Shown here: positions 48,611 to 51,243 of the stretch, piece by piece
How positions within the stretch are numbered: position 1 is the first letter of the stretch
How the letters are laid out: every line of letters starts with the position of its first letter
DNA from: Candidatus Bathyarchaeota archaeon
GTDB lineage: Archaea; Thermoproteota; Bathyarchaeia; Bathyarchaeales; Bathycorpusculaceae
Assembly (NCBI GenBank): GCA_026014745.1
Contig: JAOZHS010000001.1
Coordinates: 806,001-870,000 of the forward strand
Length of the DNA: 64,000 nt
Reading direction: 5' to 3'
The notes under the pieces: generated by a model
The model's input: only the letters and a program-made list of their open reading frames with translations
The model's database searches: none
What the model was told of the DNA's origin: nothing
Made by a program: the position numbers and the translations under genes

Positions 48611-48966
48611 GCTGAAAAGACAATAGAAGTCCAACAGGCTAATGGACTGTTTCTGCGCTAATACTGACCTACCCCTCTATAGTTTCTGCATAGAACCACT
48701 AATAGGATCCAAATAGACAGCAAATAGATTCGTGAACGCAAAAGAAAGCAGCGAACAGCACAATGCAAGCGGGCACTAGCATGGCCCAAACAGGCAAAAA
48801 CACCGCCACCACCCCACAAACCAACCCACCCATAAAAACAAACTTCACAATAAAAAAACAAAATAAAACAAGCCATATACAACACTGCGTACAAGACATA
48901 AATAGTGAAACGGGCAGTACTTGTCATAAATAAGTAGTTACACTTGAAAAAAATGAGAGAACAATA
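48611..48966. other. Spacer holding repeat copy B and the promoter region of the toxin-antitoxin operon
   Basis: 356 bases. The left half is the repeat. The right half (48794-48966) is very AT-rich, with poly-A runs and GAGAGAACAATAATG before the start of the operon. A minus-strand frame with hydrophobic translation crosses the repeat but is not supported (see rejected list). Confidence 0.6.
48639..48793. repeat. Dispersed intergenic repeat, copy B
   Basis: GCTAATACTGACCTACCCCT, CTATAGTTTCTGCATAGAAC, CACTAATAGGATCCAAATAG match copy A base for base over about 70 positions. Differences are single bases plus one seven-base gap near 48760. The right end GGGCACTAGCATGGCCC is also shared. The first TTTCAACAT part of copy A is absent. 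It lies between the alcohol dehydrogenase gene and the toxin-antitoxin operon. Confidence 0.85.
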
Positions 48967-49554
48967 ATGGACAAGCATAGTCTCCCTGCCATAGACGACC
49001 TTTCGTTAACTCAAAAAATCAGTATACTTCTTCTGGGAGGCAATTGTTCAGAACAGCTTAAGGGCAAACTGTGGTTTCAAAAGGAGTTATTTCTAATCGC
49101 GCAGAATCTTCCAGAACTTGAAGAAGAAACTGATTTTGAGGCAGATTTCATTGGCCCTTATAGTGAAATAGCTGATGAAGAGTTAGATCATCTACGGATA
49201 GAAGGCATTGTTGATAGAACTAAAGAGAAACTAACCCCTATAGGCGAGAAAATCAGGGAGCGCGTAGACCTAGAATTCTCTGAGGATATAAAGAAATTTA
49301 TTACTGAAATCAAAACATTTTTGAACGATCTGTCGAGAGACGAATTGCTCGGTTTTATCTACTATACATATCCGAAAATGAGAGTTGAGTCAGTTGAATT
49401 TGAGCGTATTTCAAAAATTCGTAAGGAAATTGCAATTTGCCTATTTAGAAAAAGCAAAGTTAGTCTTGGTAAAGCTGCCCAAATAGCTGGTGTTATACAG
49501 GAAGATTTCATTAATTTACTCCACCTTAACGGCATAAAGGTTTACTCGGCGTGA
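48967..49554 (+). CDS. Panacea-like / UPF0175 fusion, probable antitoxin
   Basis: 195 residues. Residues about 10-100 look like a Panacea (SocA/DUF4065-type) domain: LLGGNCSEQLKGKLWFQKEL then ADFIGPYSEIADEELDHLR and KLTPIGEKIRERV. The C-terminus (about 150-195) matches UPF0175 antitoxins: IAICLFRKSKVSLGKAAQIA and VIQEDFINLLHLNGIKVYSA, an HTH-like unit often paired with PIN toxins. Panacea domains neutralise many unrelated toxins in bacteria. ATG at 48967 after AGAGAACAATA. A PIN gene starts four bases after its stop. The fusion of two antitoxin modules is unusual; both assignments are by pattern. Confidence 0.7.
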   Translation: MDKHSLPAIDDLSLTQKISILLLGGNCSEQLKGKLWFQKELFLIAQNLPELEEETDFEADFIGPYSEIADEELDHLRIEGIVDRTKEKLTPIGEKIRERVDLEFSEDIKKFITEIKTFLNDLSRDELLGFIYYTYPKMRVESVEFERISKIRKEIAICLFRKSKVSLGKAAQIAGVIQEDFINLLHLNGIKVYSA

Positions 49555-49558
49555 TAAC

Positions 49559-50056
49559 ATGGTTTTGCTCATTTTAGATTCATCTGTTATCATTGCTTTT
49601 ATGACCGAGATGGATGATGGAGATTATCTAAAGGCATTATGTTCAATGGGCTTTAGAGTAACAGTTACCTCTGGTGTAATTGAGGAAGTTAAAAAAGAAC
49701 CTGGAAAAAGCCGACTTGCAAAAGCAGTTGAAGAACACTGGATCGAAGTTCAGGAAATACCTGAAGATGAGTTCACATTTTTCAAAAAAAGATACCCCAT
49801 GCTAGACTATGCAGAGGTTGAGGTTATTCAGAAGGGAATTGAACTAAAACATCTGGGTATTGACTATTGTTGTATTATCGATGAGGGTGCTGGGCGAAAA
49901 ATTGCAGATGCCTTAGGTTTGGAGAAAATGGGAACTGAGGGTTTATTGAATAGAATGAACCATTTGGGTGTTATCGACGCATCGCTTAAGGAAAAGCTTT
50001 TCAAGAAATTGTACCAATCATCATTCAGGCCATCAAATTCGAGTGTACGGCGATGA
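49559..50056 (+). CDS. PIN-domain nuclease, probable VapC-type toxin
   Basis: 165 residues. Starts MVLLILDSSVIIAFMTEMDD, the PIN-domain opening with catalytic Asp7. A mid Glu is in RYPMLDYAEVEVIQKG and the late acidic cluster is in CCIIDEGAGRKIADALGLEK, as in the DUF3368-type PIN group that pairs with UPF0175 antitoxins. PIN toxins cut RNA. Four bases separate it from the upstream antitoxin gene, and its TGA overlaps the ATG of the next gene (ATGA), so all three are coupled. Basic C-terminus FRPSNSSVRR. Confidence 0.8.
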   Translation: MVLLILDSSVIIAFMTEMDDGDYLKALCSMGFRVTVTSGVIEEVKKEPGKSRLAKAVEEHWIEVQEIPEDEFTFFKKRYPMLDYAEVEVIQKGIELKHLGIDYCCIIDEGAGRKIADALGLEKMGTEGLLNRMNHLGVIDASLKEKLFKKLYQSSFRPSNSSVRR

Positions 50057-51243
50057 CAAAGCTTTCAGTTCACCCAATTGACACAGATAAAGGTGATGAA
50101 TCACTTTACATAACAAAAGAAATTCGCACAAGCGGACAATCTATAAGGACACCAATAGTTGCCTATAATAACAATTTAATTCGAAATGATGAACAAGTAG
50201 CTCCAATAACAAGAGGCCTAAATGAAATTTATTGTGAAATTGAAACTCAAAAAACACCTTTAGAAAAATTAGTGCGGAACACAGCGGCAACCAATAATTT
50301 CGATCAGAGGATAAAATCCCAACTTAGGAAGTCATCAAGTAACGAAATAAATTTGTGCATCTTAGAGTGTAATCTCCAAACGTATCCTTCGTCCCAAAGT
50401 TGGGAGTTCGTGCTTGATACAGCTCACGCAAATTCAGAAATTGTTCCCGTACCAAACACGCCCGAAATTGTTTCCAATATAATTGGGTCTCAGGATAAAT
50501 TCGAAACATACCTTTCTTTTTTAAAACAATCAATCGATTACCTCAGAGTGATTAATGAAAAGCCCATAATGGGTGTTATCCCAACGCTCTCTTACACAAA
50601 CACAAGGCAGTTAATGGAATTTTACATTGACTATGGCATTAATGCTTTCTATGTCGATTTTTCAGCGCGTAATATGATCACTGCAAAAAGAGATTGTATG
50701 AACGTTCTAAAGGTTCTTAAGAGGCATGAAATGATAGAGAGCAGCTTTTTGTATGCATATAACTTAAACTCAGGTAGACTAACAAAAACTACCGATGCTG
50801 TAGCAGCCAAAGACATAATCGCCTTTGGATTTGGTTTTAATGCATTTGGACGAAAGCACAAGCGCCCAAAGGTCGATGCAAGCGTGTGGCGGCAGATTAA
50901 CACAATGCCCAACAAGGTTCGTATCTTTAACAAGAAAGACTATGGTTATTATCGAGTAATTAACTCTGATAAAATATCTACTTTTTATCCACCCGATTCC
51001 TGTTTTACTGCTGAACAATTTAGTCATTTTCTTAGCTTAAGCACAACTGAAATACGACGCTGTGAAGCCTTATTTAACACAGAACAGCTTAATATGGAAG
51101 CCTTTAGGTTACGGCAGATAATTAAAGATGATAAACCTGTCGATTACTTGTCACGTAAGGCATATGTTCGAAAAGAAGACATAAAAACTATGCGAAATTT
51201 CAAAGCTAAAGTGTCTTCTAAATCCGAAAGTACTGATTCATGA
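50053..51243 (+). CDS. Unrecognised 396-aa protein in the toxin-antitoxin operon
   Basis: 396 residues, starting in the ATGA overlap with the PIN gene. The N-terminus (ITKEIRTSGQSIRTPIVAYN) faintly recalls the opening of tRNA-guanine transglycosylase barrels (G..IxTPxFxPV). The middle has strand-helix alternation typical of a TIM barrel (KPIMGVIPTLSYTNTRQLME, NAFYVDFSARN, DIIAFGFGFNAFGRKHKRP). No zinc-binding Cys cluster and no certain active site is visible. C-terminal 60 residues are charged. Codon use is AT-rich like the two genes before it. A base- or nucleic-acid-modifying enzyme is one guess; it is not established. Confidence 0.55.
   Translation: MTKLSVHPIDTDKGDESLYITKEIRTSGQSIRTPIVAYNNNLIRNDEQVAPITRGLNEIYCEIETQKTPLEKLVRNTAATNNFDQRIKSQLRKSSSNEINLCILECNLQTYPSSQSWEFVLDTAHANSEIVPVPNTPEIVSNIIGSQDKFETYLSFLKQSIDYLRVINEKPIMGVIPTLSYTNTRQLMEFYIDYGINAFYVDFSARNMITAKRDCMNVLKVLKRHEMIESSFLYAYNLNSGRLTKTTDAVAAKDIIAFGFGFNAFGRKHKRPKVDASVWRQINTMPNKVRIFNKKDYGYYRVINSDKISTFYPPDSCFTAEQFSHFLSLSTTEIRRCEALFNTEQLNMEAFRLRQIIKDDKPVDYLSRKAYVRKEDIKTMRNFKAKVSSKSESTDS

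Follow-up and report, generated by a model that had tools for sequence, protein, structure and literature searches.

The locus described here raises the question of what a third gene, which belongs to no recognized family, does behind a toxin–antitoxin pair. In the window, i.e., the whole 64,000-nucleotide stretch of Bathyarchaeota DNA that was analyzed, the three open reading frames of the trio, designated g1, g2, and g3, lie at 48967-51243, all on the plus strand. Their coordinates and those of associated features are given in Table 1.

Table 1. Coordinates of the trio and associated features in the window
Feature	Position	Strand	Remarks
g1, antitoxin	48967..49554	+	195 aa; Panacea-like/DarG-CTD-like N-domain + UPF0175
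UPF0175 part of g1	49402..49545	+	aa 146-193; Pfam match coordinates
g2, predicted PIN/DUF3368 RNase toxin	49559..50056	+	165 aa; PADLOC PDC-S70, homologue matches
g3, predicted TGT-fold protein, constant partner of g1	50053..51243	+	396 aa; AlphaFold, Foldseek, profile match, recurrence
Dispersed intergenic repeat	48632..48788	.	upstream of g1; 52 matching places in own genome

Layout of the locus and its genomic setting

The three genes are as tightly packed as a previous sequence-only reading of this DNA had proposed. g1 and g2 are separated by 4 bases (taac), and g2 and g3 share an ATGA overlap. The same reading had described the trio as AT-rich unlike its neighbors. This was borne out by a GC content of 36 to 39%, compared to approximately 50 to 60% in the flanking genes, which suggests recent acquisition. 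The dispersed repeat noticed in front of the trio is present as well. Since it matches 52 places in the genome, it is a general genome repeat rather than a feature peculiar to this operon, and it is probably not a part of the module. The neighboring XRE-CBS gene is kept in 14 genomes of the same genus, and the metY and wHTH genes in most of them, whereas g3 was absent from the retrieved flanks of all 14 (1.5 kb on either side). The trio is therefore accessory.

The antitoxin and its N-terminal domain

The product of g1 had been interpreted as a fusion of Panacea and UPF0175. The second part of this assignment stood: UPF0175 (PF03683) matches the C-terminal end of g1 with an E value of 9.9e-11, over the Pfam cut-off. 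The first part was retained as a remote relationship only. The N-terminal domain, comprising approximately aa 1 to 140, is fused to UPF0175 in g1 and likewise in its homologues. Pfam Panacea (PF13274) yielded no match in g1 of the window. SocA_Panacea weakly matched 6 of 25 g1 homologues (best E value, 0.0021), whereas UPF0175 matched 23 of the 25. A relative consisting of the N-terminal domain only (L128:4993-5502), recovered by the g1 profile with an E value of 4.4e-24, matched SocA_Panacea with an E value of 4.4e-5 and 24.8 bits, just below the cut-off of 25.7. The PADLOC model PDC-M19A, a name not found in the literature searched, covers aa 25 to 191 of g1 (E = 5e-9).

In Panacea, the GPV signature has been reported to be critical for neutralization (PMC8832971). 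At the corresponding place, g1 has GPYS (residues 63 to 66); in the homologue alignment, G63 is invariant and the motif mostly reads GP(Y/F)S. The sequence comparisons remotely support a domain that would be distantly Panacea-like but not Panacea proper.

The AlphaFold (AF2) model of g1 reached a pLDDT of 92.9. Closest to it among PDB folds are the chains of DarG in 7yk3, a complex with DarT (probability, 0.84 to 0.91; TM score, 0.45 to 0.49), with an E value of only about 0.3 for the fold match. By this comparison, the modeled N-terminal domain resembles the C-terminal (toxin-binding) domain of DarG, its nearest solved fold. The module differs from DarTG in that g1 is a helical domain with UPF0175 and has a PIN partner, with neither a macrodomain nor DarT.

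The predicted toxin

The assignment of g2 as a PIN toxin of the type pairing with UPF0175 was corroborated. g2 matches PDC-S70 models in PADLOC with an E value of 5e-16; the window copy has no significant match to a Pfam family. A close homologue in L009 matches the PIN-associated domain DUF3368 with an E value of 1.6e-5, just below the cut-off, and other g2 homologues match PIN or DUF3368 in Pfam. An alignment of three g2 sequences shows conservation of D7, E43, E86/E88, and D108, all of them acidic. UPF0175 was already listed as a PIN partner in a toxin–antitoxin survey of 2009 (PMC2701414). With a UPF0175 antitoxin adjoining a PIN toxin in one operon, the locus has the layout of a type II toxin–antitoxin system. 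The C terminus of the antitoxin and the type of toxin are those of known UPF0175-PIN pairs, whereas the N-terminal domain and g3 are additional.

The third gene: a predicted TGT fold with apparently altered catalytic positions

g3 had no match in Pfam, NCBIfam, PADLOC, or PHROG families or among PDB sequences, and the tRNA-guanine transglycosylase (TGT) family PF01702 gave no Pfam match among 16 members of the g3 family. Neither viral contigs nor phage records yielded a homologue of g3. A faint TGT-like pattern had been noted before, and it is backed by both structure prediction and profile comparison. With the 16-sequence alignment as input, the AlphaFold model of g3 reached a pLDDT of 84.9 and a pTM of 0.87. 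The best 13 Foldseek matches in the PDB were all TGTs, ahead of other TIM barrels, with E values from 4.6e-8 to 2.2e-5 and TM scores from 0.52 to 0.58; the best one had a probability of 1.00. Local profile scores of g3 against archaeal TGT were 35.8 to 38.2, compared to 12.6 to 17.8 for column-shuffled or reversed controls, and the global profile comparison yielded values of 1.7e-7 to 3.5e-6, compared to 0.17 to 0.94 for the controls. Two signatures are common to g3 and TGT: an N-terminal strand ending in TP and a C-terminal N...E...I...L helix. Judged by model and profiles, g3 is a strongly altered relative with a TGT fold.

Residues E58, P134, P177, Y191, D202, N237, D254, G266, Y299, N342, and E349 are invariant in all 27 g3 sequences (27/27). 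Of these, G266 would take the position of the nucleophilic Asp of TGT, as read from the alignment and the predicted strand order. In the alignment, the general-base position is variable, and no cysteine motif corresponds to the TGT zinc site (CxCxxC...H), the best Cys column amounting to 10 of 27 sequences. g3 thus seems to lack the canonical residues of TGT, namely, the nucleophile, the general base, and the ligands for zinc. A joint alignment had suggested the motif FNxxDYGYY as the nucleophile site; this was rejected, since by the modeled strand order the motif falls in the hairpin after strand 8. The invariant E58, D202, N237, and D254 could equally form a new active site. In relation to the base-exchange enzymes TGT and DpdA (the comparison was made with TGT alone), g3 has the fold and the terminal signatures of the former but differs in that the catalytic Asp and the Zn ligands were not found and in its toxin–antitoxin context.

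Linkage of g3 to the antitoxin

To what g3 is linked can be read from its distribution. The g3 profile search recovered 9 of 257 genomes of the class and 19 of 398 genomes of the phylum, a few remnants included. A pattern scan detected g3 in Freyarchaeota, ANME-2, Methanoperedens, Nanoarchaeota, Nitrososphaeria, and one contig of a metagenome-assembled genome (MAG) labeled Terriglobia. In the neighborhood survey, 30 loci, spread over several archaeal phyla including Thermoproteota, had g3 next to a homologue of g1, far more than chance would explain; a weak g3 match in L055 was excluded from these counts. The expectation of a conserved third gene and a recurring trio thus held. The layout is divergent in 19 of the 30 loci and codirectional in 11, the window trio being codirectional.

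Searching 398 Thermoproteota genomes with g1 gave the same picture: for all 15 strong full-length matches (E ≤ 1e-54), g3 was adjacent (15/15). The g1–g3 association is thereby demonstrated. Weaker g1 matches included two decayed loci (G402 and G307), g1 with PIN and a divergent g3 (G050), g1 with PIN but without g3 (G320), and g1 alone (G520); stand-alone UPF0175 matches were many. The locus L123, with a g1-type protein and PIN but no g3, shows that g3 is not required in every case. In the decayed loci L122 and L125, g3 is already gone while remnants of g1 persist. A g3 homologue without g1 lies on a Haloarcula plasmid (L167; CP050016.1, 6956-8170), where it adjoins an Eco57I-type restriction-modification enzyme.

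The Terriglobia-labeled MAG contig (L062; JAIQGC010000141.1) carries a trio whose g3 shares 71% identity with that of the window. It may represent lateral transfer or a misbinned archaeal contig.

Toxin exchange beside a constant N-terminal domain and g3

Downstream of g1, a PIN or PIN-like gene is present in 23 of the 30 loci (two by eye only) and a ParE/RelE gene in 4 (L010, L041, L067, and L069; Pfam ParE_toxin, E = 2e-7 to 2.5e-11). Two loci (L014 and L053) have broken MazF-like frames, recognized from translations only, and one (L050) has an 88-aa gene of no recognized family. In the g3 tree, L012 (PIN), L014 (MazF), and L041 (ParE) form one clade with a support of 100/100, and the remaining three ParE loci fall into a separate clade (100/99). 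Since one well-supported g3 clade contains three toxin families, it is the N-terminal domain of the antitoxin, rather than the PIN toxin, to which g3 is tied. In five distinct Nitrososphaeria-type loci, a member of a distantly g3-like family (hhalign against g3, E = 1.2e-8) immediately follows an N-domain protein that lacks UPF0175 and has no RNase toxin. What the loci have in common is the N-terminal domain together with g3.

The sequence-only reading had fixed the third gene to the PIN toxin and had named its occurrence apart from PIN genes as evidence against itself. g3 does occur apart from them, next to ParE/RelE and MazF-like genes and, in its distant relatives, with the N-terminal domain alone, so that the coupling to PIN fails by that reading's own standard. 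Overall, the reading is partly supported: g3 is linked to the antitoxin, not to the toxin.

In the pairs of a Panacea-like protein without UPF0175 and a following g3-like gene (L132:4546-6787, L127:3766-5478, and L164-L166), no RNase toxin was recognized, and a small Cys-rich (CxxC) protein often precedes the pair.

Restriction and abortive-infection genes in the neighborhood

The trio was located between HsdS and HsdM, i.e., within a type I restriction-modification operon, in L060 and, according to our reading of the open reading frames, also in L061. HsdM lies close downstream of the trio in L058, and in L059 the trio stands behind an HsdR fragment. Other copies are near GmrSD (L009), AbiEi/AbiEii (L057), or an Eco57I-type enzyme (L062). 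With restriction and abortive-infection genes near several loci, the earlier suggestion of a defense variant is plausible; the neighborhood of these listed loci, taken by itself, would fit a defense role of the module.

Proposed mechanism and alternatives

We hypothesized that the locus is an archaeal tripartite toxin–antitoxin module, most likely for defense of the abortive-infection type, in which the constant g3 acts on the antitoxin as its sensor or regulator; we assign this reading a probability of roughly 0.5. g2 would be the toxin; as a PIN RNase, it is predicted to cleave RNA and so halt growth. g1 would be the antitoxin, whose UPF0175 part, or elsewhere another C-terminal extension, would fit the toxin present, with the Panacea-like/DarG-CTD-like N-terminal domain as a constant hub. 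g3, having the TGT fold without TGT chemistry but with a conserved pocket kept, would act with this N-terminal domain. At rest, the toxin would be held inactive by g3 together with g1. Binding of a g3 ligand, perhaps a base or a nucleic acid that is viral or damaged, would shift the hold on g1 and free the toxin. Since, across archaea, toxins are exchanged while g3 remains linked to the antitoxin, it is probably g3 that decides when the toxin is released.

Archaeal toxin–antitoxin and defense systems are little understood, and how toxin–antitoxin systems are triggered is an open question in the field. A third protein of enzyme fold that remains constant as toxins are repeatedly exchanged directs attention to the control part and offers a testable trigger. 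If g3 is a sensor or regulator, the TGT fold would have a role outside base exchange.

An alternative that we consider rather unlikely is that g3 is a working nucleic-acid enzyme, performing an altered base exchange or a glycosylase or ligase-like reaction, which modifies host RNA and thereby shields it against the toxin, or which repairs or marks the product of the toxin. The TGT fold with its retained N- and C-terminal signatures would agree with this, as would the polar residues invariant in 27/27 sequences, several of which (E58, D202, N237, and D254) lie at C-terminal strand ends of the predicted barrel. The glycine at the nucleophile position, the unconserved general base, and the lack of conserved cysteines argue against it. 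Furthermore, because PIN, ParE/RelE, and MazF toxins differ in their RNA targets and the same g3 accompanies them, one protective mark made by g3 is unlikely; shielding of the toxin's RNA target was ranked lower for this reason.

A specific form of the sensor reading is more doubtful. g3 might be a TGT enzyme turned receptor, whose old base/tRNA pocket would sense a nucleic-acid signal of infection, whereupon the Panacea-like hub would free the attached RNase toxin. Candidate signals are perhaps cleaved or modified tRNA or 7-deazaguanine-modified viral DNA. If true, g3 would represent a plug-in immune sensor common to PIN, ParE, and MazF effectors across archaea.

Less credible still is that g3 is itself an effector, with a divergent promoter and g1 controlling both the RNase toxin and g3, so that g1 would be antitoxin or repressor for both. 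The divergent promoter region that g3 has to itself in 19 of 30 loci and the existence of N-domain/g3-like pairs with no recognizable RNase toxin would be explained in this way. However, in 11 loci g3 is codirectional with the toxin or middle gene and lies behind it, and it was g3 that the decayed loci L122 and L125 lost first, with g1 remnants remaining. Finally, we regard it as very improbable that g3 is a passenger of an ordinary UPF0175-PIN addiction pair: such pairs are known without g3 (PMC2701414), and stand-alone UPF0175 matches are numerous in the genomes searched, but a passenger would not be expected to stay linked in 30 loci from different phyla, in either orientation and despite exchange of the toxin.

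Relation to known systems

In TAC systems, a third protein, a SecB-like chaperone, controls the antitoxin. CmdTAC is an example in which the third part controls antitoxin activity (PMC11618068). Similarly to TAC, the third gene studied here is tied to one part of the antitoxin while the toxins vary. The third protein has a SecB fold in TAC, however, and a predicted TGT fold in g3; in addition, the proposed hub is the N-terminal Panacea-like domain, transcription is mostly divergent, and the module is archaeal. Given the TGT fold of g3, the module is not a member of TAC, although the logic is comparable.

Panacea (PanA-PanT) systems likewise combine a single antitoxin domain with many toxin families, and the GP of their GPV motif may be matched by that of GPYS in g1, but the N-terminal domain of g1 remains under the Pfam cut-off and is fused to UPF0175. 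Moreover, the Panacea survey reported accessory third genes in small fractions of genomes only (PMC8832971), whereas g3 was adjacent at 15/15 strong full-length g1 matches. In the literature searched, which left most subscription papers and bioRxiv outside, only two papers mention UPF0175, no account of a matching module was found, and neither was a TGT-like protein linked to one.

Other arrangements of the Panacea-like domain

A four-gene cassette (L128:4993-7692 and L133:4585-7219) encodes a Panacea-like protein, a two-helix membrane-type protein, a nuclease-like protein of 137 to 139 aa, and a protein of 404 to 415 aa with CxCxxC. Among 121 searched genomes of the family, only 2 contained it. 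The 404- to 415-aa protein was rejected as a g3 or TGT relative, since profile comparison with both was not significant.

The Panacea-like domain of L128:4993-5502 and L127:4927-5478 has a further match, to the C-terminal portion of a type I specificity-subunit model in PADLOC (E of approximately 1e-12 to 1e-11), a hint of possible HsdS fusions. In L130:4670-5764, it is fused to ankyrin repeats. A second Panacea-like antitoxin, accompanied by another PIN toxin and without g3, is encoded a few kilobases upstream of the trio in both L060 (3761-4741) and L061 (3544-4524).
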